From Acidobacteriaceae bacterium (GTDB lineage Bacteria; Acidobacteriota; Terriglobia; Terriglobales; Acidobacteriaceae), in assembly GCA_030040395.1 (NCBI GenBank), contig JASHTU010000269.1, forward strand, positions 1-10,822: DNA of 10,822 bases, read 5' to 3'. The position numbers and the translations under genes were made by a program. Under the pieces are notes generated by a model. The model worked only from the letters and a program-made list of their open reading frames with translations, was not told the origin of the DNA and did not search any database. Positions 1-10,578 of the stretch are shown here, piece by piece. How positions within the stretch are numbered: the stretch's first letter is position 1; the number at the start of each line of letters is the position of its first letter.

Positions 1-1433
1 TGCTGAATGCCCAGATCCGAAAGCACCTTGGGCTTGGCTTCTTCCACGGCCAGCAAATTGTGGCAAACCGAGCAGTCCTGCGGAATCGCGTTGCCGTTCT
101 TGGCCAGGTGGCTGCCATCGTGGCAGCGGAAACAGCCGGGGTAGCTCATGTGTCCGATGTGGTTCGGATGCGTGCCCCACGTCACGTCCATGGAAGGGAA
201 GACATTCTCGGAGTAAAGCGTTACCAACTCCTGCGCCGCCGCTTTCACCTGCGGCCCTTTCGCCGCCAGCACCTCCGGAAAGCTCTTCTGGTAGAACGCC
301 GTCAGTTCCTGGGGAATTTCGGCGCGCGCCTGCGCCTGGCTCGTGTAGGCGGCCTTCAGCAGTTGCAGGCCCTCCTTGTGAACCCAGGGTAGATCGGCGC
401 TGATGATCCCATCGGCCATCGCCCGGTCAATCGCGTCCTGGGCGGGTTCAAACGGGTGCGCCGCGCGGTTGTGGCAATCGATGCAATCCATCAACCGCCG
501 TTCACCCTTGGGAACGCCGCTGCCCGCCGGCAGCGAACTATAAACCGCGTCCGAGCCATCGGGGTTTTCCCGCGCCACCCAGGGAATCGTGGTCCGCGCC
601 GAGTCGGTGGCGATGTACTCGATGTGCCCCAGGTGAACCCCGTGAATCCCCGTCAGGTGTGACAACGAATCCACCCCTCCCAGGTGCAGGATCAGCACCG
701 TCTGCGTCTCGGTGTTCTTTTCGTCGTCGGCAAACTCCGACTTCACCAGCAGCTTGTCGCCATCGAAGCGAGTGGGCGTGTGGCAGGCCTCGCAGGTGTA
801 CCGCGCTGGACGCAGGTTCGTCACAGGCGACGGAATCGGCCGCGGATAGCGGTCGAAGGCGACCTCGAGGATCTGCTTGGTCCCGTTCACCTTGGCGCTG
901 AAGTAGGCTTGGGCGCCCGAGCCGATGTGGCACTGGACGCACGCCACATGGGAGTGAGCGCCAATCTGGTAGGCGGCGTACTCCGGATTCATCACGTGGC
1001 ACGATTGACCGCAAAACTGCGGCGAATCCATATAATCCGCGCCGCGATAGCTGGCCGTCGCCACGACCAGCAGGTTGAAGATCGTCGCTACCAGCACGAT
1101 GTCCAGACCATGCCGGAAGATCCGGTCGTTCAAGTCGATCTTGGGATATTCGGCGGGAATCTGCCCCGCTCTCAGAAGCTTCCTGCGCCGCGCCAGCACC
1201 CCGATCGGGATCAGCGCCAGCCCGATTACGAACAAAATGGGCAGAATCAGTGAAAAGATGATGCCCAGATAGGGGTTTTCGCTGAGGTGCCCGACCAACT
1301 CCGCCGCCCAATAGCCGATCATCGTCACGCCGGAAGCGGTGGTAATGGCGCCCCCGGCCAGGCTGATGGGGTTATTACCAAAAAACAGCGCCGGCCGCAG
1401 CCAATTCTCGCGGAAATTCTGAAAAAGTGACAC
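1..1433 (-). CDS. Membrane-anchored multiheme cytochrome c, NapC/NirT type, ImcH-like (3' end outside window)
   Basis: Likely inner-membrane quinol dehydrogenase that passes electrons from the quinone pool to periplasmic cytochromes. The frame is open from a GTG at 1433 to the left edge (477 residues visible). GGGAGG at 1438-1443 lies four bases before the GTG, and I see no in-frame ATG upstream. Three hydrophobic segments (about residues 21-46, 55-80 and 109-129) precede the heme domain. Heme motifs: CGQSCH at 141-146 (a CxxxCH, followed by Met148 in the CHxM arrangement that supplies the axial Met in NrfH/NapC proteins), then CxxCH at 165, 214, 317, 434 and 454. Geobacter ImcH is a NapC/NirT protein of about 510 residues with three membrane helices and seven hemes, including CxxxCH-type motifs; the match in architecture is good, so a seventh motif may lie beyond the edge. 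It is the last visible gene of the cytochrome cluster, 203 bp after the second monoheme cytochrome. The multiheme membrane cytochrome call is firm; ImcH-like function is inferred. Confidence 0.88.
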   Translation of the reverse strand, partial: MSLFQNFRENWLRPALFFGNNPISLAGGAITTASGVTMIGYWAAELVGHLSENPYLGIIFSLILPILFVIGLALIPIGVLARRRKLLRAGQIPAEYPKIDLNDRIFRHGLDIVLVATIFNLLVVATASYRGADYMDSPQFCGQSCHVMNPEYAAYQIGAHSHVACVQCHIGSGAQAYFSAKVNGTKQILEVAFDRYPRPIPSPVTNLRPARYTCEACHTPTRFDGDKLLVKSEFADDEKNTETQTVLILHLGGVDSLSHLTGIHGVHLGHIEYIATDSARTTIPWVARENPDGSDAVYSSLPAGSGVPKGERRLMDCIDCHNRAAHPFEPAQDAIDRAMADGIISADLPWVHKEGLQLLKAAYTSQAQARAEIPQELTAFYQKSFPEVLAAKGPQVKAAAQELVTLYSENVFPSMDVTWGTHPNHIGHMSYPGCFRCHDGSHLAKNGNAIPQDCSVCHNLLAVEEAKPKVLSDLGIQ

Positions 1434-1437
1434 CTTG

Positions 1438-1443
1438 CCTCCC
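1438..1443 (-). promoter_or_regulatory. Ribosome binding site supporting the GTG start of the ImcH-like gene
   Basis: Read on the minus strand this is GGGAGG, with four bases before the GTG at 1433. The spacing is short but usable. The ATG ten bases further upstream is in another frame. Confidence 0.5.
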
Positions 1444-1636
1444 GCATGTTGCGGATAACCTGCACACTGGCGGGCCGGAAGTTAGCTCAAAGCCTCTGCA
1501 CGCCGCGCAGCCGCGGGCACACGTCCCCTCAGCGCCGGACGGCGCCCCGGTGAAATGGCCACGACGCACCCTCGCGCGCGCAGTCGGAGCACCCCGAGCC
1601 CGCTCTATTGTGCATTTCGATTTTCGATTGTACGTG

Positions 1637-1954
1637 CTATTTGAGGGTTTTGAAATACTCGGCTACCGCCTTTACCTGTGCATCGCTCAACCCGGCGATC
1701 GGCTTCATCTTGCCCTTGCCGTTCTGTACTGTGGCCTCGACTTGCGCCACCGTCAACGCCTTCATCGCCGGATCGGAAACCGCCTTGATGCCCATCATCT
1801 TGGCCATTCCAGGGCTGGGAGTTCCCGTGGGCCCATGGCACATTTGGCATTTCGCCTTATAGGTCGCTTCCCCTGAAGACTGGGCGAAGCTCATCGCGCC
1901 GGCCATCGAGACGGCCGTGGCCAACACTATCAAAGATCGAATCCTCTTCGTCAT
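1637..1954 (-). CDS. Small periplasmic monoheme cytochrome c (second tandem copy)
   Basis: A 105-residue class I-type cytochrome c, probably a soluble periplasmic electron shuttle. The signal peptide is clear: Lys/Arg at residues 3-6, a hydrophobic stretch 7-21, and likely cleavage after the SFA at 22-24. The heme motif CQMCH is at 36-40, and Met83 in a GKGKM segment is the likely distal axial ligand. I take the ATG at 1954, not the longer frame that opens at 2131, because AAGGAG (1962-1967) sits seven bases before it and the signal peptide then begins at residue 1. An ATG at 1960 would lie only one base from the same site. It is a paralogue of the gene at 2177-2494: same length, same order of motifs, same ribosome-site spacing, and shared blocks such as GEATYKAKCQ and the MM(G) segment after the heme. 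The pair sits between the MtrB-like barrel and the ImcH-like gene, which suggests a role linking inner and outer membrane. Confidence 0.9.
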   Translation of the reverse strand: MTKRIRSLIVLATAVSMAGAMSFAQSSGEATYKAKCQMCHGPTGTPSPGMAKMMGIKAVSDPAMKALTVAQVEATVQNGKGKMKPIAGLSDAQVKAVAEYFKTLK

Positions 1955-1961
1955 TCCCATA

Positions 1962-1967
1962 CTCCTT
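1962..1967 (-). promoter_or_regulatory. Ribosome binding site fixing the start of the second monoheme cytochrome
   Basis: AAGGAG on the minus strand, seven bases before the ATG at 1954. It decides the start against the longer frame opening at 2131 and against the ATG at 1960. Confidence 0.75.
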
Positions 1968-2082
1968 GAGCCCTTCCGGTGCTTGAGTTTTCCGGTCAAC
2001 ACGCGTCCGTCCGCATTCAACCCGGTGATTCCCTGTCTTGGTCCAGCCGCGATCGGAGACTTCCCGCCGCTGGCGCCGTCAC

Positions 2083-2108
2083 TGAGATGGAGAACTGATC
2101 CCATCTCA
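2083..2108. repeat. Perfect 8-bp inverted repeat upstream of the second monoheme cytochrome
   Basis: TGAGATGG (2083-2090) and CCATCTCA (2101-2108) are exact reverse complements around a 10-base spacer, in the 222-bp gap between the two small cytochrome genes and about 130 bp before the downstream start. On the minus strand no T-run follows, so it is not an obvious intrinsic terminator. It could be an operator, an mRNA hairpin, or chance. Confidence 0.35.
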
Positions 2109-2176
2109 CACGAACGGCGCGGAGGTGTCAACGTGCCCCGCGCCGGTTCCTTTCCCTCGTGCTCTTTTCCCGCGTC

Positions 2177-2494
2177 CTACTTCGCGAAAGTCCGGAAGTA
2201 AGCCACGGAATCCTTGATCTGGGCGTCGGTCAGCTTGCCCTTGAACGCCGGCATCTTGCCCTTGCCGTCGGTCGTAATGGCGATCATCTGCGCCTCACTA
2301 TGCGCCTTCACCGCCGCGTCATTGGCGGGCTTTACGCCCATCATCTTGGCAATGCCCGGATTTGGCGTGCCTTCAGCGCCATGACAGCTCTGGCATTTGG
2401 CCTTATACGTCGCTTCCCCGGATTGGGCGAAGCCCATCGCGCCGACAAACAGAACCGCCGCCAACGCAACCGCAAATCGAATTGTCTTGCTCAT
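2177..2494 (-). CDS. Small periplasmic monoheme cytochrome c (first tandem copy)
   Basis: A 105-residue class I-type cytochrome c with an N-terminal signal peptide (Lys3 and Arg6, hydrophobic core about 7-21, likely cleavage after GFA at 21-23). The single heme motif CQSCH is at 34-38, and Met81 in GKGKM is the likely sixth ligand. Start chosen at the ATG at 2494 because AAGGAG (2502-2507) lies seven bases upstream; the longer frame from 2554 would place a polar stretch ahead of the signal peptide. Its partner at 1637-1954 has the same length and layout, so the two arose by tandem duplication. Divergence lies mostly between the MMG block and Met81 and at the C-terminus. Likely a diffusible periplasmic carrier that loads the decaheme conduit or receives electrons from the inner-membrane cytochrome; that partnership is inferred from position only. 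Confidence 0.9.
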   Translation of the reverse strand: MSKTIRFAVALAAVLFVGAMGFAQSGEATYKAKCQSCHGAEGTPNPGIAKMMGVKPANDAAVKAHSEAQMIAITTDGKGKMPAFKGKLTDAQIKDSVAYFRTFAK

Positions 2495-2501
2495 GGTCGT
2501 G

Positions 2502-2507
2502 CTCCTT
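2502..2507 (-). promoter_or_regulatory. Ribosome binding site fixing the start of the first monoheme cytochrome
   Basis: AAGGAG on the minus strand, seven bases before the ATG at 2494. Motif and spacing are the same as for the paralogue, consistent with the duplication having included the translation start. Confidence 0.75.
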
Positions 2508-2593
2508 GCACTTATTCCGGCTGGCGCACGGCCTGCCGAAAAACCCTCTTTCACTTTCTTTCCATTTTCACAAGGCGCGCCTGCGAGTCTTGG

Positions 2594-2640
2594 AAAAACG
2601 GGGCGGGCCTAAAAACTTCTGGGCCCGGGCCCACCCCCGT
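2594..2640 (-). terminator. Probable Rho-independent terminator after the MtrB-like gene
   Basis: On the minus strand, ten bases after the stop of the barrel gene, ACGGGG (2640-2635) pairs with CCCCGT (2603-2598). After a small internal loop, GGGCC (2632-2628) pairs with GGCCC (2609-2605). A run of five T (2598-2594) follows the stem. The loop holds a perfect 14-bp palindrome (2620-2633) that could form a competing hairpin. Position, GC-rich stem and T-run all fit an intrinsic terminator. It would partly or fully separate the decaheme/barrel pair from the small cytochromes, which would then need read-through or their own promoter in 2495-2593. Confidence 0.6.
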
Positions 2641-2649
2641 GAATGTTCG

Positions 2650-5271
2650 TCAGAATTCGTAATGCACTCCGAGGAGCACGTTGCCGGCGTGGAAATTCCG
2701 TGGCAAGCTTTCGCCCGCGGAAGGAAGCGTCAGGCCGGTTTGATACGCCGTGATTGAACTGCATGGAACCACGGAAACCGGCGCGCCGGGTGCTGGGGCC
2801 GTTGGAGAAGTGGAACAGTACTGCGCCCCGGAAGGACCACCCTCCCCGTAGCCGTAGAAGTTGTACTGCGCCTTCCACGTCCATCCTGCCCCGTACTTCC
2901 ACGCGATGTTCACAAAAGGCGACTGGTAGGTCGAATTCAGAGAACCGTTCACCGCCCGCGGATCGTTGAAGAACTGGTTGCCGCTCACCGCGCTCACGTT
3001 GTAGCCGAGGTTGGCTTGGAGCCGCCGGGTGGGCGCCACATCGAACGCCACGAATGCCGATTGCGTGGGCGCGTCGATGAAGTCCAGGGCCGGCCCGAAA
3101 TCATAGCCTCCTCCCCTGTTCTGCGCTGTTTGAGGGCACGCCGTGCCGCTGGGAGTGGCGGCGGCGAGGGGCAAAGCGGCGCTAGCGCCCCCCAGATAGC
3201 AGATGTTATCCGCCATATACACATCGCTATAGGCATAGTTGAGATCGACGCCGAAGTGTTCGTTCGGGAACAGGTCCGTTCCCACGCTTACGAAGCGGCT
3301 GTGGTCCGCATGATCCAGCGGGCCGGCGTAGGCAGTGTTGGACGCGGTCAAGTCGGCCGGACTCAGGTTGTCGGTGTTGTTGTGCCGCTCCCGGTCCGTA
3401 AAGGCGCCTGAAATCGTCGCCCACGCCTTCGGCCTGTAAATGGTGTGCACCCGGTACTCGCGCAATTGCCTGAATCCCATCGGCGTAAGCGCGTTGTCGT
3501 TGTACATCGCTTCCACGCTGCCGTTCAGTTCCCAATTGTTGGTGGGCCGCAGGGCCGCGTTCACAATTGCGCCGTCTCCGTTGATGTCGACAATGGTGGG
3601 TGTCCAGGTGGCCGGGGCGGTGCTTGTCGCGTATGCGTAGGCGGTCTGATCGATGTCATGCAAGCTGTGGCGATAGGTGAGAGCGAACGTGGCCCGGGAG
3701 GTGGCGTCCCAGCTCAACGTGAAGTTATTCTCCACAGACTTCTGGCCGAAGTATTGCGGCAAGGGCAAGCCGATGTCGCCGCTGCCTTCAAAAGTGCTGG
3801 TGAGTGGAGTGGTGGGAGCGCTCACTACAGTCGCGGTCGTCGGGCTGTTGATGGTTTCGCTGCCCGCAGCCGTCCCCGTCAGCAGCGTGGTCAGGCCGTT
3901 CATGGTTGTCGCTCCCGGCTGGTGAGCATTCGAGAAAGTTACCTGCTCTTCGAGGCTCACCCGATTGCTGAACTGCCACACGGCGCCAAAATCGGCGGCG
4001 ATCACTTGGCGCCTGGCGCTGCCCGCAGCCGTGTATACGAGTCCGGTGGTGGCTCCGCTCTTGCCGGCCGTCGTCAGTCCCTGGAAGCTCTCGTAATAGG
4101 CGGGCATATTCATGTTGGCGTTGGTGTACCGCACGTCGCCGTTCAAAGCCACGTTCTTGATGCTCGAGCTCTGCAGCCGGAAGATCTCCGTCGGAAAGAG
4201 AATGCGCGTCGGCGCCGAACGGGAATAGTTGGTCACCACCGCGCAAGCCGGGTTCACCACCGGTATGCCGCCGGCCATGGTCGATGCCGACAGAATCGGA
4301 TTGCCGTTCAGGCTGTTGGCGTTGCACGAGCTGCTCGTGTAGGGCGTTAGGGTAAAGTAGCTCGCCAACAGCGCCGCCGGAGTTCCATCCGCCTCCGCCA
4401 CGTTGAAAGCGCCCGGCGCGAGGTTGAAGTAGGAGTTCACCTTCTCATGGTCGATCTCCTCTTCATACGTCAGCCGCGTGTTCCGCACCGGCTTCCAGTC
4501 GATCCCGCCCAGGAAATTGTCGCCGCTGTTGCGCTGGAACTCTTCGACGATATTGGAGTACGAGCCGCCGAACGAATAGCCGCTCGGCGTCAGGCTCGGC
4601 CCCTCGAAGACATCCTGCGAGTAGCTGAACCGGTAGGTCACTTTCGCCAGCGGCGCCGCGGTCAGATTCACGTCGCTCATGCGGCGCACGGTGTTGAACA
4701 GGAACGCGGATTGATCCATCTGCGCATAGGGCAGCGCGCCGGTGGGCGCGGTCGCGGGGCCGATGGGTATCGACTGCCCGCTGGGAATATTCGCGTTGCC
4801 CAGTAGATCGTAATCCATATATTGGCGGTCGCGGCGGAACATCCCCGAGAAGTCGTAAACCTTTCCCTTGGAAAAATCCAGCCTGGCGAAATCGTTGGGG
4901 TCGCCGCCAAATCCGCTGCTCACCGCGTTTAGAACATCGAACGGCCCGGTTTCATTTCCGGGATTGGCGCGCATTTCGAAGGTCTGATTCAGCACGCGGG
5001 GTCCTGATTGAAGGTTCACCAGCGTGTCGTACATGGCGCCGCCGCCGTTGATCCCGGCGATGCGGCCGCCCAAATCCACCGACTGATGGACCGTATACCC
5101 CGAAGGAATGCTCATCTCCGGCGTCGAGCCCGCCGCGGCGGGAGTTTGCGCCGCGGCGACGCCCGCGATCAGCGCCAGCATGGCCGCCGCGGCGCCCTCG
5201 CCGAGACGCCGGATCACTGCGGGCGAACCATATTGCTTCGAAAGCCTTGAATACCAGCCTGTCATGTTCAT
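2650..5271 (-). CDS. MtrB/PioB-family outer-membrane beta-barrel of a porin-cytochrome conduit
   Basis: An 873-residue outer-membrane protein that should form the sheath around the decaheme cytochrome encoded just upstream, letting electrons cross the outer membrane. A signal peptide with a basic N-region (Arg21, Arg22) and the hydrophobic run AAAAMLALIAGVAAA at about 27-41 leads to a long mature part. This is rich in alternating aromatic and polar strands with Asp/Asn/Gly turns, and ends in HYEF, a C-terminal Phe as expected of barrels. Length and partner fit MtrB/PioB/DmsF proteins, somewhat longer than Shewanella MtrB (about 700). I see no N-terminal CxxC of the kind described for Shewanella MtrB. 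The mature part has six Cys in three close pairs (316/343, 691/712, 819/837) within Gly/Ala/Pro-rich, loop-like stretches. Start: ATG at 5271 with GAGG at 5278-5281, six bases upstream; a GTG at 5283 would add four residues. It lies 114 bp after the decaheme gene. Orthology to mtrB itself versus pioB or dmsF cannot be settled here. Confidence 0.88.
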   Translation of the reverse strand: MNMTGWYSRLSKQYGSPAVIRRLGEGAAAAMLALIAGVAAAQTPAAAGSTPEMSIPSGYTVHQSVDLGGRIAGINGGGAMYDTLVNLQSGPRVLNQTFEMRANPGNETGPFDVLNAVSSGFGGDPNDFARLDFSKGKVYDFSGMFRRDRQYMDYDLLGNANIPSGQSIPIGPATAPTGALPYAQMDQSAFLFNTVRRMSDVNLTAAPLAKVTYRFSYSQDVFEGPSLTPSGYSFGGSYSNIVEEFQRNSGDNFLGGIDWKPVRNTRLTYEEEIDHEKVNSYFNLAPGAFNVAEADGTPAALLASYFTLTPYTSSSCNANSLNGNPILSASTMAGGIPVVNPACAVVTNYSRSAPTRILFPTEIFRLQSSSIKNVALNGDVRYTNANMNMPAYYESFQGLTTAGKSGATTGLVYTAAGSARRQVIAADFGAVWQFSNRVSLEEQVTFSNAHQPGATTMNGLTTLLTGTAAGSETINSPTTATVVSAPTTPLTSTFEGSGDIGLPLPQYFGQKSVENNFTLSWDATSRATFALTYRHSLHDIDQTAYAYATSTAPATWTPTIVDINGDGAIVNAALRPTNNWELNGSVEAMYNDNALTPMGFRQLREYRVHTIYRPKAWATISGAFTDRERHNNTDNLSPADLTASNTAYAGPLDHADHSRFVSVGTDLFPNEHFGVDLNYAYSDVYMADNICYLGGASAALPLAAATPSGTACPQTAQNRGGGYDFGPALDFIDAPTQSAFVAFDVAPTRRLQANLGYNVSAVSGNQFFNDPRAVNGSLNSTYQSPFVNIAWKYGAGWTWKAQYNFYGYGEGGPSGAQYCSTSPTAPAPGAPVSVVPCSSITAYQTGLTLPSAGESLPRNFHAGNVLLGVHYEF

Positions 5272-5277
5272 ATGAAG

Positions 5278-5281
5278 CCTC
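5278..5281 (-). promoter_or_regulatory. Ribosome binding site for the MtrB-like gene
   Basis: GAGG on the minus strand, six bases before the ATG at 5271. It favours this start over the GTG at 5283 (which overlaps the site) and the ATG at 5265. Confidence 0.55.
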
Positions 5282-5385
5282 ACTTGAAAACCGCCTCTTA
5301 CCTCAAACCCTGACCTTGCTTCGACACCCGCTGTCCGGTCTGCGCCTCGCCGTCCGTCCGGGACTCAACGGCGCAGGCCTTTCAG

Positions 5386-6423
5386 CTACCTGAGGAACGC
5401 CGCGTTGATGTTGGACCCATGAATGTAGGTGTGGCAGCTCGTGCAAGGCGCCAACTCGTCCGATCCAGCGCCCATTCCGTGAATCGTTGCGTTCGCCACC
5501 CGGCTGTGGCACTGGTTGCAGAGCGTGTTGATGTTGGCCAGATTCAGCAGCCGCGGATTCTGCGAACCATGCGGCGTGTGGCAAGCCAAGCACCCTTCCG
5601 CCTTGACCGGCGCGTGCTCGTACACAAACGGCCCGCGCACGTCGGTGTGGCACTTGGTGCAAATCATGTTCTGGTCCGCCGTGCTCCGCAGATTGTTGTT
5701 GCCGAAAGTGCCATGCACGTCGTGGCAATCCGTGCACTGCACCAGACCCTCATTCACCCGGTGATGGATGGGCATGTTGAACTGCGCCCGCTCGCCGTTG
5801 TGGCACTGGTAGCAGAGGGTGGGCTGCGGCCCCTTGAGCAGCAGATCCTTGGCCTCGGGGCTGTGCACGTCGCTGGTGGTGCCCATCAGGTGCAATTCCG
5901 CCGCCTGCAAGGGAGTGCGTGCCTCGGAACCGTGAATGCTGTGGCAGCTAATGCAGCTCAGGCCCGCTTTGGCGTGGGGCGAGCGCTCAAAATTGGGGTG
6001 GGTTCCAGCGTGGCATTTCAAACAGGTGTCGTTCACCTGCTTTGCCGAGCCCTTCAAAGGATCGAAGATCTTGCTCACGTCGCCGCCGCCGGCCACGTGG
6101 TCGGCGCCCGGTCCGTGGCAGTTTTCGCAGGTGATGCCGTTGTCACCGTGCATGAACGTCATCTTGGTATGGGGATTGGCAGCGAACTTCTTGCTCACCT
6201 CGTCATGACAAGTGGCGCATGTGTCGGAGCCCACGTAAGTCGAGGGCTGAACCGCCTTCGCCGCCGCGGGGTTGGCCGGCTTGTTATTTTTGGGAGGCGC
6301 GGCCAGGGCGGTGGCGCAGATCATGCCCGCGCCCAAAATCAACATCCAACTCGCTCGCAGTCCCGGCCAAATCCCCGGAGCCGCACCGATCGGCAATCGC
6401 GTTACAGGCCCACTCGTATGCAT
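5386..6423 (-). CDS. Periplasmic decaheme cytochrome c, MtrA/DmsE/PioA family
   Basis: A 345-residue decaheme cytochrome expected to act as a molecular wire plugged into the MtrB-like barrel. N-terminal signal peptide: basic residues at 9 and 23, hydrophobic WMLILGAGMICATALA at 26-41, likely cleavage after ALA. Exactly ten CxxCH motifs begin at residues 69, 99, 134, 157, 204, 230, 255, 278, 302 and 327, and further His residues between them can serve as distal ligands (bis-His hemes are the rule in this family). Length and heme number match MtrA and DmsE (about 330 residues, ten hemes), and there is no long N-terminal extension as in PioA. Start: ATG at 6423, with a GGCGG-like site eight bases upstream; internal Met27 or Met34 would cut into the signal peptide. 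It is first in the minus-strand cluster, followed at 114 bp by its barrel partner, and faces a divergent Crp/Fnr gene across 537 bp. Confidence 0.93.
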   Translation of the reverse strand: MHTSGPVTRLPIGAAPGIWPGLRASWMLILGAGMICATALAAPPKNNKPANPAAAKAVQPSTYVGSDTCATCHDEVSKKFAANPHTKMTFMHGDNGITCENCHGPGADHVAGGGDVSKIFDPLKGSAKQVNDTCLKCHAGTHPNFERSPHAKAGLSCISCHSIHGSEARTPLQAAELHLMGTTSDVHSPEAKDLLLKGPQPTLCYQCHNGERAQFNMPIHHRVNEGLVQCTDCHDVHGTFGNNNLRSTADQNMICTKCHTDVRGPFVYEHAPVKAEGCLACHTPHGSQNPRLLNLANINTLCNQCHSRVANATIHGMGAGSDELAPCTSCHTYIHGSNINAAFLR

Positions 6424-6568
6424 GCAAGTTACCGCCTTGGGACGCTCCCTCTGCCTCTTCCACCGGCAGCGGAACTAGCGGTTCGTGGGGCCGGACGCGG
6501 CGTCTTCTCTGGCGGGCGCCGCATCGGCTTCAGGTGTGCTGGTTCGTCTTGCCGAGGAAGCTTCGCGT

Positions 6569-6584
6569 TGTGCGGAGCATCACT
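6569..6584. promoter_or_regulatory. CRP-like site 1 (weaker)
   Basis: TGTGC-N6-TCACT, 8 of 10 positions of TGTGA-N6-TCACA. It is the palindrome closest to the decaheme gene, centred about 154 bp before its ATG. Confidence 0.4.
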
Positions 6585-6623
6585 ACTTATCCGCAACACT
6601 ACGCTGCGGTCATACACCCAAGC

Positions 6624-6639
6624 GGTGACGTTCATCACA
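6624..6639. promoter_or_regulatory. CRP-like site 2
   Basis: GGTGA-N6-TCACA, 9 of 10 positions of the CRP consensus, with an exact GTGA/TCAC core. Centre is 55 bp from site 1. Confidence 0.55.
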
Positions 6640-6714
6640 TCATTTCAAAGGGCGGGAATTGGCCTTTATTTGCCCGCGCCAGAGCGACTTACGCCCGGGC
6701 GCCAGTCGCCATTT

Positions 6715-6730
6715 CGTGAGCGCAGTCACA
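6715..6730. promoter_or_regulatory. CRP-like site 3
   Basis: CGTGA-N6-TCACA, 9 of 10 consensus positions, exact GTGA/TCAC core. Centre is 91 bp from site 2 and about 238 bp before the regulator's ATG. Confidence 0.55.
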
Positions 6731-6786
6731 TTCATGCGCGTTCCGCGCCTGACTTTGTTCCGCCTCCGCGACACCCTTCCAATAGA

Positions 6787-6802
6787 CGTGAGGCCCATCA
6801 CA
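6787..6802. promoter_or_regulatory. CRP-like site 4
   Basis: CGTGA-N6-TCACA, 9 of 10 consensus positions and the same outer bases as site 3. Centred about 166 bp before the regulator's ATG, so autoregulation is plausible. Confidence 0.55.
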
Positions 6803-6949
6803 TCCAAGGCCACGCTCAATGCGCAACACTCTCAATCAAGCAAAAGCCCCTATTCCGGAAGAGCCCTCGCGCCTCCACCTTGACCATGGCCCTTGCGGGG
6901 AGCGCAGGATTGCAGAAAAACGGCGGAGGCGCTGGATCGGCATCGGAAG

Positions 6950-6953
6950 AAGG
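6950..6953 (+). promoter_or_regulatory. Ribosome binding site for the Crp/Fnr regulator
   Basis: AAGG, within GAAGAAGG, lies seven bases before the ATG at 6961. It favours this start over the in-frame ATG at 6886 and over the long frame that runs open from 5419. Confidence 0.6.
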
Positions 6954-6960
6954 CAAGACG

Positions 6961-7713
6961 ATGACGAACACAGAAATTTCTTCGGATGGGCATGGGCGGA
7001 CCGCACAGATGGGCCGCCAGGCGCCCGTGGGCTGCGCCGCATGTTCCAACCGCCGTCCGGGGTGGTTCTGCTCCTTGGGCAGCGCGGTTCTCGCCGACCT
7101 CGAGTTGGCCACCAGCACCATTTCTTTGCCCGCGCAGGCAGCCCTGTTTACCCAGGGCGAAGAAGCTCGCTGCCTCTACCTCATCTGCGGCGGGTACCTC
7201 AAGCTCACCACCGGCCGGCCCGACGATCGCCAGATGATCGTGCGCGTTGCCGGTCCCGGCTCGATGCTCGGCCTCTACGCGGTTCTCTCTCACGGAGTCT
7301 ATGAGGTGTCGGCGGAGTCATTGACCACTGCGCAATTGCGCCCTGTCGAGCGGGAGCGTTTTCTCAACTTCCTGCGCAGCCATAAAGAGGCGCAAATGCG
7401 CTCCGTGCAGTGCATTTGTCAGGAGTACCGCTTCGCTTTGCAGGACGCCTGCCGCATCGCCCTCTCTGAGACCGTGGCCACGCGCCTCGGCCGGCTGCTG
7501 CTCGAACTCGCCCACCAGATCGGTGAACGCACGGACAACGGCGAATACCATTTTCCCCTTCTCCTCACGCACGAGGAGATGGCCTCCATGACCTGCACCA
7601 CCCGGGAAACCGTGACCCGCACCCTGGGCCAGTTCCGCAAAGAGGGTTGGATCACCATCGAGGACTCTCTTGTCACCCTCCGCCAGCCCGAACGGCTGCA
7701 AAGCCTTATTTAG
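6961..7713 (+). CDS. Crp/Fnr-family transcriptional regulator with N-terminal cysteines
   Basis: A 250-residue DNA-binding regulator. Residues about 40-135 form the cyclic-nucleotide-binding-like sensor barrel (LFTQGEEA..LYLICGGYLKLT, then QMIVRVAGPGSMLG), followed by a long dimer helix. The C-terminal winged helix-turn-helix at about 200-240 has the recognition segment R215-E216-T217-V218-T219-R220. This matches the R-E-T-V-x-R of E. coli CRP, whose Arg, Glu and Arg read TGTGA, and not the E-x-x-S-R of FNR. Three cysteines, C25-x2-C28-x8-C37, resemble the N-terminal Fe-S ligands of FNR. The position matching FNR's fourth ligand (Cys122, before a conserved Pro) is not Cys; C71 and C76 are possible substitutes. 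The Arg of the CRP cAMP pocket is not evident, so cAMP is unlikely to be the effector. It lies divergent from the electron-transfer cluster and is probably its regulator, sensing redox state or oxygen (inferred). Confidence 0.92.
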   Translation: MTNTEISSDGHGRTAQMGRQAPVGCAACSNRRPGWFCSLGSAVLADLELATSTISLPAQAALFTQGEEARCLYLICGGYLKLTTGRPDDRQMIVRVAGPGSMLGLYAVLSHGVYEVSAESLTTAQLRPVERERFLNFLRSHKEAQMRSVQCICQEYRFALQDACRIALSETVATRLGRLLLELAHQIGERTDNGEYHFPLLLTHEEMASMTCTTRETVTRTLGQFRKEGWITIEDSLVTLRQPERLQSLI

Positions 7714-7825
7714 CGCCAGGATCTCGAGCCCGCCCTTTTCCCGCTTCCGTCCGGCCCGTTTTCCGAGTCCAAGAGATATGATTTTCCTAGGGCCTTCCCA
7801 GTACAAACGGGAGCACACCTTGACT

Positions 7826-8413
7826 ATGAGCCGTCTTTTTGCCTGCTTTGCTGCTGTACTTTTTGCGTGCTGCGCCGCAGCCGCCCAGAATCCTGCAACC
7901 GATCCGCCAACGGCCACCACGCCCGACCAGTCCGGCGCCTTGACCACCGAAAGTCCGGAGATCGTCGAGTTTCAAAAGATCGAGGACGCCTGGGCCACCG
8001 CCGTCAATCAGCACGACCAGTACGGCTTGGAGAACGTCCTATCGCCATTGTTCGTCGATGTTGCGGCCAACGGCGACATCACGACCCGCAACCAGCAGGT
8101 GGTCCAAGTCATCTCGAGTGACGACAAGGGGCTGTATCTCACCCAGAAGGTGATCACGGTGCGCATGTTGGGCGACGTCGCCGTAGCCAACGGCACCTAC
8201 ACCCTCCGCCACCGGGTAGCCTCGTCGGAAGTGACAGAAAAAGGCGTTTTCACCCACATCTTCGAGCGCTCGCATGGCGGCTGGAAGTGCATCAATTCCC
8301 AGCGCACCACGCTGCGCCAGGAGATGCAAGGCAAGCAGAAGAAACCCTCCACGGCCGAAGAACCGTTCCATATCCCGTTCTTCTCTCGCGGAGATAAGGA
8401 CAGCCAAAATTAG
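7826..8413 (+). CDS. Exported NTF2-like (DUF4440/SnoaL-type) protein
   Basis: A 195-residue protein of unknown specific role. Residues 1-20 are a signal peptide (Arg3, hydrophobic 4-20, likely cleavage after the Ala run before Gln21). An L-F-A-C at 12-15 is a poor lipobox, so a lipoprotein is possible but less likely. After a Thr/Pro-rich linker, about 46-165 resembles the NTF2-like fold of DUF4440: a starting helix EFQKIEDAWATAV, a central VRMLGDVAVANGTYTLRHRV strand pair, and FTHIFERSHGGWKCINSQ near the end. This family often lacks catalytic residues, so no reaction is assigned. The C-terminal 30 residues are charged and low in complexity. Start: the ATG at 7826 places the signal peptide at the N-terminus, but a GGGAG at 7809-7813 is twelve bases away. 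The ATG at 7778 is an alternative that adds 16 residues. It sits 112 bp after the regulator on the same strand and ends 44 bp from convergent mnmG. Confidence 0.78.
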   Translation: MSRLFACFAAVLFACCAAAAQNPATDPPTATTPDQSGALTTESPEIVEFQKIEDAWATAVNQHDQYGLENVLSPLFVDVAANGDITTRNQQVVQVISSDDKGLYLTQKVITVRMLGDVAVANGTYTLRHRVASSEVTEKGVFTHIFERSHGGWKCINSQRTTLRQEMQGKQKKPSTAEEPFHIPFFSRGDKDSQN

Positions 8414-8450
8414 GCCCTAAGTTGCGCCGATTCTGAAGTGAACTTTGGCC
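8413..8450. terminator. Possible hairpin between convergent genes
   Basis: GGCC (8413-8416) pairs with GGCC (8447-8450), and AAGTT (8419-8423) with AACTT (8441-8445), separated by a small bulge; the loop is 17 bases. It fills the 44-bp gap between the convergent NTF2-like gene and mnmG, as a two-way terminator would. No clear T-run follows on either strand and the loop is long, so the call is weak. Confidence 0.3.
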
Positions 8451-8457
8451 TGCGCTT

Positions 8458-10578
8458 TCAGCAAGCTTCTCTTTGAACTGCCGAAGCGCGGCCGTCGTCC
8501 ACTGCAGGATCCGGGCTCCACGGGCCGTTCCGTTCGGTCGCCCGCCGCGCCCGCTGCACCTTGCCCGCCCCTTGCAGCTTGATTGACACGTGCACCAAAC
8601 TCAGCGCTGCGGGCGTCACCCCGGGAATGCGGCTTGCCTGCCCGATCGTGCCCGGCCGTACGCGCTCCAGCTTCTCCCGCATCTCGCGCGAAAGCCCGCT
8701 GATCGATCCGTACTCGATCCACTCCGGAATCGCCACCGCCTCAGCCGCCCTCAGTTTCTCGATAGCCTTCTTCTGCTGGTCCAGATATCCGGCAAACTTG
8801 ATCTCCGTCTCTACCGCCCGCGCCTCGTTGCGCAGCGTGCTGCGCTCGATGGGATCGGGAATCTCGCCGCGGGAAAGCCCGAATTCAGCCAGCAGCGGAT
8901 CTCGCCGGAGTTGGTCAGCCAGCGCCGCGAGCACCGCGTCAATCGTCACCTCCGGCCGCTTAAGCAGTTGCGCCCAGGTCAGCCCCGCTGTCGCCGTCAG
9001 CTCGCCAAGGCCTGCGGCCTGCAGCTTTTCGGAGTCGATCTTGCCTGAAGCGAGCAGCCGCTTGAGCGCCGACATCCGCGCCTGCTTGCGCTCGTATTCC
9101 GCCCACGCCGCGTCGTCGATCAGTCCCAGCCGACGCCCGTGCGGCGTCAGCCGGCGGTCGGCGTTGTCGATGCGCAGATGCAGCCGGAACTCCGCGCGTG
9201 ACGTAAACATTCGGTAGGGCTCATTGGTTCCCTTCGAAATCAAATCGTCGATCAGGATGCCCGTATATCCTTCGCTGCGGTCCATCGTGAACGGCGGCTC
9301 GCCCTTCAACCACAATGCCGCGTTAATGCCCGCCATGATCCCCTGGCACGCGGCCTCTTCGTACCCGCTTGTGCCGTTGATTTGCCCGGCGAGGTAAAGG
9401 CCCTCCATGGATTTCACACGCAAGGTGCGGTTCAGCTCCGTGGCGTCGACACTGTCGTACTCGATGGCATAGCCCGGCCGCAGCATCTCCGCCTCGTCGA
9501 GGCCCGGAATCGAGTGCACCATTTGCCACTGCACCTCCATGGGCAGAGACGTGGACATCCCGTTCACGTATACCTCGTGCGTGTTCAGCCCCTCCGGCTC
9601 CAGAAAGAACTGGTGCTGTGTCTTATCGGGGAATTTCACAATCTTGTCTTCGATCGACGGACAGTACCGCGGGCCGATCCCCTGGATCCGCCCTGAATAC
9701 ATCGCGCTTCGGTGCACGTTTTCGCGGATCAGCCGCAGCGTCTCCGGCGTAGTGAAGGCGATGTGGCAGCTTACCTGCGGTTGCACGATCTTCTTCGTCC
9801 GAAAGCTGAATGGCGTTGGCTCCGCATCGCCTGGCTGCTCCTCAAACATGTCCCACCGGATCGTCCGCCCATCCAAGCGCGGCGGCGTTCCTGTCTTTAA
9901 CCGGCACGTCCGCAGCCCCAGCGCGCGGAGCGCCTCGCCCAACAGCACGCTGGCTGGCTCCCCGCTCCGGCCCGCCGGATATCGCTCTTCGCCGCAGTGA
10001 ATCAACCCATTCAGAAATGTGCCGGTGGTAATAATCGTTGCGCCCGCCATCAGCCTGCGCCCGTCGCGCATCTTCAGTCCCACGACGCGGCGAAAAGGCC
10101 GCACCGGCCGTGGCAACTCAGCTGCTTCGTCGGTTTCCTGGGTCCCTAAGTCGCCAGCTCCTAGTCCTTCAGTCCCTGGTCCCTCTTCGATCACGAGGTC
10201 CACGACCTCCGCTTGCCGTATATGCAAGCCCGGCTGGCCCTCCAGCACTTCGCGCATCTTCACACGGTAAAGCTGCTTATCGCACTGCGCCCGCGGACTC
10301 CACACCGCCGGCCCGCGCGACGAGTTCAGCAGCCGGAACTGAATTCCTACCGCGTCCGCCACTTCGCCCATAATTCCGCCCAGCGCGTCCACTTCGCGCA
10401 CCAGGTGTCCCTTGGCGACGCCGCCCACGGCCGGATTGCAACTCATTTGCGCAATCAGGTCAAGGTTCATGGTGATCAGCGCGGTCTTCAGCCCCATGCG
10501 CGCCGCAGCCATCGCCGCCTCGCACCCCGCATGCCCCGCACCAACCACTGCCACATCGTATTGTTCGGTAAAAGCCAT
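8458..10578 (-). CDS. mnmG: tRNA uridine-5-carboxymethylaminomethyl modification enzyme MnmG (GidA)
   Basis: FAD-dependent subunit that acts with MnmE to install the carboxymethylaminomethyl group on U34 of certain tRNAs. The dinucleotide-binding motif [10 protein letters not shown] is at 13-22. Family-typical blocks follow: [21 protein letters not shown] (48-68), the GPA-RAQ block near 89-98, [20 protein letters not shown], and the [15 protein letters not shown] block. The C-terminal domain ends in the usual [13 protein letters not shown] segment. At 706 residues it is longer than the common 620-640. The excess is a repeat-derived insertion at about 131-160, and a C-terminal tail of about 35 polar residues after the conserved end. 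Start: ATG at 10578 with AGGG just upstream, immediately followed by the FAD motif region. It has no evident functional link with the electron-transfer genes. Confidence 0.97.
10141..10184. repeat. Degenerate 7-bp tandem repeat inside mnmG
   Basis: Plus-strand units GGTCCCT (10141), AGCTCCT (10156), AGTCCTT (10163), AGTCCCT (10171) and GGTCCCT (10178), the last four almost back to back. Read on the coding strand they give the Gly/Thr/Leu-rich stretch [12 protein letters not shown] at about residues 135-146 of MnmG, where family members normally have a short surface loop. The frame is kept, so it looks like a tolerated expansion or small repeat insertion. Confidence 0.6.

Follow-up and report, generated by a model that had tools for sequence, protein, structure and literature searches.

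The window, i.e. the whole stretch of DNA that was analysed, is one entire contig of 10,822 bases from a metagenome-assembled genome (MAG; 4.1 Mb, 674 contigs, 77% complete). Its minus strand carries five genes which probably encode a path along which respiratory electrons leave the inner membrane and reach the cell exterior. In transcription order these are the genes for a decaheme cytochrome, an outer-membrane barrel, two monoheme cytochromes (copy 2, then copy 1) and an ImcH-type membrane cytochrome, separated by gaps of 102, 155, 216 and 203 bases:

5386..6423, minus strand: MtrA/DmsE-type decaheme cytochrome c of 345 residues with ten CxxCH motifs and an N-terminal export signal (TIGR03508, PDB 6r2q)
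2650..5283, minus strand: outer-membrane beta-barrel of predicted MtrB fold with GSU2204-like kin, 873-877 residues, C-terminal Phe, six invariant cysteines
2177..2494, minus strand: exported class I monoheme cytochrome c, copy 2, ATG at 2494 (PF13442, 56.4 bits, cut-off 27)
1637..1960, minus strand: exported class I monoheme cytochrome c, copy 1, ATG at 1960 or 1954 (PF13442, 47.5 bits, cut-off 27)
1..1433, minus strand: ImcH-type inner-membrane cytochrome, 477 residues in the window, one CX3CH and five CX2CH motifs (PF03264, motif count, contig overlap)

A first-pass annotation of this DNA had placed five such genes on one strand of a probable acidobacterium, and both statements hold. All five were found on the minus strand, and the nearest named loci of the barrel gene lie in MAGs labelled Acidobacteriaceae (best segments 87-89% identical), so that the source organism is taken to belong to this family. 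A plasmid origin was rejected, with neither ImcH nor the barrel matching the plasmid collection at E ≤ 1e-5. The cytochrome motifs are not a matter of chance, because a search of all six frames of the window gives 19 CxxCH words, 17 of them inside the four cytochrome open reading frames (ORFs).

The decaheme protein exceeds the cut-off of TIGR03508 (250.6 bits against 192.2), and among solved structures it is closest to chain A of PDB 6r2q (E 4.7e-30; the chain label is odd in the file). With ten CxxCH motifs in 345 residues and an export signal called by hydropathy, the exported MtrA-type decaheme proposed earlier is thereby borne out. The model for GSU2203/OmcK, NF041028, gives 209.9 bits, under its cut-off of 325. 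The two small cytochromes were likewise confirmed as exported monohemes, both lying above the PF13442 cut-off; for copy 1, the start at 1954 is spaced better than that at 1960 from its AAGGAG.

The barrel protein ends in Phe, as had been noted, and the 873 residues given for it hold from an inner ATG, the length from the GTG being 877. Its predicted structure has the MtrB fold. On profile comparison its closest named kin are the Geobacter GSU2204 proteins, with nine of 17 members of the barrel family matching the GSU2204 model NF041027 at E ≤ 0.01 (best 8.3e-9). Six cysteines are invariant in all 83 relatives compared and perhaps form three disulfides. Shewanella MtrB carries an N-terminal CxxC; neither CxxC nor CxxCH was found in the window barrel, a weak criterion given that CxxC is also missing from the first 90 residues of the other listed ORFs.

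At the left edge of the window, the ImcH-type protein (frame at 3-1433) matches PF03264 (NapC/NirT) with 38.5 bits (cut-off 24.1). It contains six heme motifs, namely one CX3CH at residue 141 and five CX2CH, and exactly this combination occurs in all 120 of the best relatives listed among 7,458 matches. According to the accessible part of PMC6295460, ImcH homologues share three membrane motifs, two exceptions aside, together with 5 to 9 CX2CH and an atypical CX3CH adjacent to the membrane part; 19 of them are listed there for Acidobacteria. The motif pattern thus agrees with the ImcH type. Of the three-helix membrane cytochrome with at least six heme motifs that had been described, the motifs stand and the helices are less clear: by hydropathy the first is weak (1.17 at residue 23) and the others are distinct (2.86 and 2.13), and a structure model with three long helices has a confidence (pLDDT 52.1) too low to be used in a fold search. 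The concern that this edge gene might be a domain fusion was settled by contig C408 of the same MAG, which starts with exactly the last 197 nucleotides of the reversed window. The frame closes there after 8 further residues, giving a full length of ~485 residues and no fusion. C408 continues with a large ORF, RNase II-type by eye, and similar-looking ORFs follow ImcH at several named loci.

The arrangement of the genes recurs in relatives. At 11 of 13 named loci, mtrA immediately precedes the barrel; at L019 it was hidden by the ORF filter, with a long antisense frame over the place, and at L031 the contig begins inside the barrel. ImcH and one or two monoheme cytochromes follow the barrel at nine loci, while the contigs of L020 and L027 end within it. 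A survey of 150 genomes of the order found the barrel in 76, ImcH in 70 and both in 61, and 43 of 73 ImcH matches (window included) had a same-strand barrel no more than 20 kb upstream. Such proximity was seen for 15 of 15 ImcH matches of 70% identity or more, for 23 of 29 at 50-69%, one of seven at 43-49% and four of 22 below this. Coordinates of barrel and ImcH for the surveys were transcribed by hand. The order survey left out six short or weak ImcH rows (the C408 end piece and one each of G119, G133, G012, G097 and G022) and, ~1.3 kb away from ImcH in G123, the barrel tail at C37:4-96; the ImcH pieces of G119 and G087 were merged, and split barrels were entered by their first piece alone, making some distances too long.

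Across 199 genomes of the phylum, 27 of 91 full-length ImcH matches (window included) were located within 10 kb of a barrel, against ~0.4 of 91 expected under uniform placement, a figure that ignores the shared ancestry of matches which are not independent. This count took ImcH matches of at least 283 bits, treated barrel pieces as a single interval and excluded a few short rows for barrels. Sixteen of the 27 neighbours are GSU2204-like barrels (eight on the opposite strand, seven of these in one genus) and 11 are of the MtrB/PioB type (one on the opposite strand), i.e. the neighbourhood recurs with two barrel families. The pairing of ImcH with MtrAB, originally regarded as an unusual mix, is indeed one that a 2018 survey did not find, but the comparison of gene neighbourhoods across Acidobacteriota shows it to recur within this phylum.

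Taken together, we consider it likely that the cluster constitutes one trans-envelope respiratory electron conduit with outward flow from menaquinol to an outside acceptor. From the gene content, the synteny and the predicted fold, we infer its carriers, docking, direction and acceptor as follows. At the inner membrane, ImcH would oxidise the menaquinol pool and hand the electrons to one or both of the periplasmic monoheme cytochromes, which would in turn reduce the decaheme. The latter would sit inside the barrel of predicted MtrB fold and deliver electrons to the outside without an MtrC-type surface cytochrome from the cluster, to an acceptor that may be, for example, organic-bound Fe(III) or the humic quinones of acid soil.

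A number of observations weigh against this reading, and they concern the barrel, the cell surface, the linkage of the genes and the direction of flow. The window barrel has no match at E ≤ 1 to the MtrB/PioB profiles TIGR03509 and PF11854 (the latter presumably the number of this barrel family), nor does it match the GSU2204 model NF041027 (cut-off 350). An alignment of its close relatives reaches a probability of only 20.8 against MtrB/PioB. In Foldseek, MtrB came fifth by E-value with siderophore receptors ahead of it, and the structural alignment of barrel and MtrB has 11% identity. The description of the barrel as MtrB-like therefore stands for its predicted fold and not for its profile family. 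TIGR03509 had no match in the whole MAG and one in 50 of the 199 genomes of the phylum sample, 21 of them above cut-off; only two of the 11 MtrB/PioB-type neighbours of ImcH exceed it.

As for the surface, to call the conduit complete was too strong, profile searches of the window having found no MtrC-type cytochrome. The best match to the OmcA/MtrC model TIGR03507 in the MAG has 20.6 bits against a cut-off of 209.3; as the MAG is 77% complete, absence from it does not show absence from the organism. Five relatives (G112, G133, G119, G072 and G097) carry additional multiheme cytochromes between barrel and ImcH. Two such proteins of G112 and one each of G133, G072 and G097 were examined as surface cytochromes and rejected: one G112 protein carries the b561 domain PF01292, the other lacks it and stands beside a separate PF01292 protein, and the remaining three were judged by eye to be membrane-bound. 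The MAG holds other multiheme proteins, among them one with 11 heme motifs and a b561 part in the layout of CbcL (L063:219-2492, G000:C497).

The decaheme-barrel pair might alternatively serve a dedicated extracellular terminal reductase, as DmsEF does for dimethyl sulfoxide reductase, rather than metals or humics. As a whole protein, the decaheme passes a single NCBIfam family model, TIGR03508, which does carry the name DmsE family. However, we take this model to cover MtrA as well as DmsE, and no molybdoenzyme or other reductase gene was recognised beside the pair in the window or, by eye, at the named loci, which makes such a role very improbable.

With regard to direction, MtrAB homologues work both ways, and the sequence does not fix which. 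The same conduit could pass electrons inward, from Fe(II) or another outside donor through the decaheme and the monohemes to a terminal oxidase, or to ImcH acting as a quinone reductase. The window resembles PioAB/MtoAB in having no MtrC-type gene, and its candidate carriers belong by profile to the class I monoheme cytochromes, which are often of high potential; both points count for inward flow. In the part of PMC8805035 available, MtoA and PioA form no clade of their own among MtrA proteins, which is in line with this. However, ImcH was known exclusively from Fe(III) reducers according to the available text of PMC6295460, and RuBisCO is present in two of 30 genomes of the genus and absent from this MAG. 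Moreover, two relatives (G034, L033, and G106, L036) have [NiFe]-hydrogenase-like and maturation genes, recognised by eye, on the opposite strand between barrel and ImcH, and these point to an inside donor. On balance, inward flow is unlikely. In G053 and G147, the gap between barrel and ImcH is of the same size as in these two relatives.

The linkage of the genes is a further concern, as they could be adjacent yet belong to separate pathways, with ImcH feeding periplasmic enzymes and the decaheme-barrel pair having another partner. At L028, and at L026 on a short contig, the pair is followed by other genes and not by ImcH. A second pair in the same MAG (C374; L014, G000:C374), whose barrel is 42% identical to that of the window, adjoins a gene looking like mtnA and has no ImcH in the 5 kb downstream, its upstream side being missing from the contig. 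Fifteen genomes of the order sample have the barrel without ImcH and nine have ImcH without this barrel. In the phylum count, where common descent also reduces the weight of the numbers, 18 of 27 neighbours share the strand of ImcH, seven of the nine others coming from one genus. Within the window, the stretch between the barrel and monoheme genes contains, at 2633-2620, a hairpin and T run resembling a terminator; both this and the gaps of 102-216 bases count against a single transcript. The hairpin slightly lowers the probability of the conduit and slightly raises that of unlinked genes. Terminator-like sites in 1-8500 number nine, one of them directly after the barrel, against 8.4 (sd 3.2) in shuffles; promoter-like sites number four against 1.8 (sd 1.2).

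Three points speak for linkage, namely the recurrence of the neighbourhood across two barrel families, the predicted MtrB fold of the barrel and the decaheme-barrel fusions found in relatives. Nine loci (L047:2570-5935, L048:3944-7213 and L087-L093) encode a protein of 1070-1121 residues with an N-terminal decaheme and a barrel-like C-terminus that ends in Trp. Both of those tested lie above the TIGR03508 cut-off. The C-terminal part resembles MtrB/PioB or GSU2204 barrels, its alignment giving a probability of 94.3 with MtrB/PioB and 8.4 with the barrel family of the window. Judged by these domains, the fused proteins are apparently a decaheme-barrel conduit in a single chain. Separate pathways are thus quite improbable, and a single conduit with outward flow remains our preferred explanation.

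Control of the cluster may lie in the region upstream of the decaheme gene, on the far side of which follow, in order, a Crp-type regulator, a DUF4440 protein and mnmG:

6961..7713, plus strand: divergent Crp/Fnr-family regulator with an N-terminal C-x2-C-x8-C (PF13545 66.4 bits, PF00027 52.5 bits, both above cut-off)
6788..6801, no strand assigned: candidate operator A of the GTGAT-N4-ATCAC type, 1 mismatch (upstream-region scan)
6625..6638, no strand assigned: candidate operator B of the GTGAT-N4-ATCAC type, 1 mismatch (upstream-region scan)
7826..8413, plus strand: exported DUF4440 protein, a doubtful member of the unit (PF14534 46.7 bits, cut-off 25.2)

The regulator was outside the range of the first-pass annotation and seems to belong to the cluster; a Crp-type regulator adjoins mtrA or the barrel at eight of the 13 named loci. 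The oxygen sensor FNR has an N-terminal cluster with the spacing C-x2-C-x5-C, which the window regulator lacks. Its C-x2-C-x8-C is shared by nine of the 11 listed divergent regulators, those of L021 and L033 being without it. Operators A and B are the sole GTGAT-N4-ATCAC sites in the entire window with at most one mismatch. At the same tolerance, the palindrome is present in ten of 11 regions upstream of mtrA, five times exactly, while in 300 shuffles it averaged 0.16 regions and never exceeded two. It should be noted that the palindrome emerged from an open count of inverted repeats and was then shuffle-tested on the same regions, so that discovery and test share their data. Ten of the regions, all of which were delimited by hand, have a crp gene, and that of L025 has another regulator. 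The only one without a site, that of L019, is just 301 bases long; both L019 and L020 are closely related to the window. None of the 11 regions contains an FNR- or CRP-type consensus pattern. The Crp-type regulator thus probably acts on the shared upstream region, through binding to the conserved palindromes, and these together with the recurring cysteine cluster support common control. The DUF4440 protein is kept next to the regulator in several relatives.

Besides the hydrogenase-like genes and multiheme cytochromes mentioned above, a cytochrome b gene stands next to a decaheme-barrel pair in G122. These variants suggest a single outer-membrane module to which interchangeable quinol oxidases deliver electrons. 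The mtrA frame of L021 (9008-9730) has just five heme motifs in 240 residues and is possibly broken or mis-assembled. On contig C661 (L032, G000:C661), the mtrA-crp-DUF4440 stretch is 90% identical to that of the window. A paralogous second copy was considered and rejected: the mnmG sequence is also there (87.5%), behind an additional stretch of ~1.2 kb, which we take to indicate the same chromosomal place in a close relative. The MAG seems to mix two close relatives.

Both halves of this system were known in the phylum. Homologues of mtrA and mtrB in Acidobacteria appear in the accessible parts of PMC5900883, PMC3669403 and PMC8805035, ImcH was on record as well, and both ImcH and an Mtr conduit are known from an organism of another phylum. 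From gene content, the first of these sources, as far as available, reports several acidobacterial strains with mtrA/mtrB homologues and none with complete Shewanella- or Geobacter-like operons. In the part of the 2018 survey at hand (PMC6295460), no mtrAB or mtoAB was found adjacent to imcH, which for this phylum is now revised; no earlier report of an ImcH-conduit cluster was found in the literature searched. Tentatively, we propose that Acidobacteriota possess a one-locus conduit from quinol to the surface, consisting of ImcH, a decaheme in an MtrB-fold barrel missed by profiles and monoheme carriers, with no surface cytochrome and with a dedicated Crp-type regulator. As the link with ImcH recurs for MtrB/PioB-type barrels and relatives apparently have decaheme and barrel joined into one protein, a large part of the phylum could respire outside acceptors. 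Acidobacteria are abundant in soil, and a conserved cluster without MtrC, whose barrel is missed by standard profiles, offers a testable reason why earlier mtr searches came up short, as well as a marker by which outside-directed respiration can be recognised in peat and soil.

Compared with Shewanella MtrCAB (PDB 6R2Q), the decaheme belongs to the same family and the barrel has, by prediction, the same fold. Unlike that system, the window contains neither MtrC nor CymA, its candidate carriers are monoheme cytochromes, and its barrel, 11% identical, escapes the MtrB/PioB profiles. PioAB and MtoAB also combine a decaheme with a barrel without a surface cytochrome. However, their barrels are canonical MtrB/PioB proteins and their flow is inward, and we know of no ImcH in these systems. 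The Geobacter ImcH, which we take to be GSU3259, differs from that of the window in having seven heme motifs instead of six, and only the latter adjoins an outer-membrane conduit. The likeness between the two, i.e. the NapC/NirT-like part, the N-terminal helices (less clear in the window protein) and the CX3CH motif, was drawn from the description in the available text of PMC6295460.

In the available portion of PMC12133095, Desulfuromonas acetexigens is described as expressing both ImcH and an Mtr conduit when on an electrode. Its protein numbers are far apart, adjacency is not stated there, and it possesses MtrC and MtrB. Group 5 of the MtrCAB clusters, from Acidobacteriia, shares the decaheme, the barrel and the phylum with the window; it differs in having mtrC and a tetraheme cytochrome, and its members are Bryobacterales or unclassified (PMC8805035, available part). 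Lastly, Geobacter GSU2203 (OmcK) and GSU2204 resemble the pair in the window through the score of the decaheme with the GSU2203 model and the nine barrel-family members matching the GSU2204 model, whereas the window decaheme stays below the cut-off and the window barrel has no GSU2204 match and no CxxCH. GSU2204 is glossed as a barrel of the MtrB/PioB family in the accessible part of PMC13188914, and that of PMC4070692 lists both GSU2203 and GSU2204 as up-regulated with hematite and magnetite.

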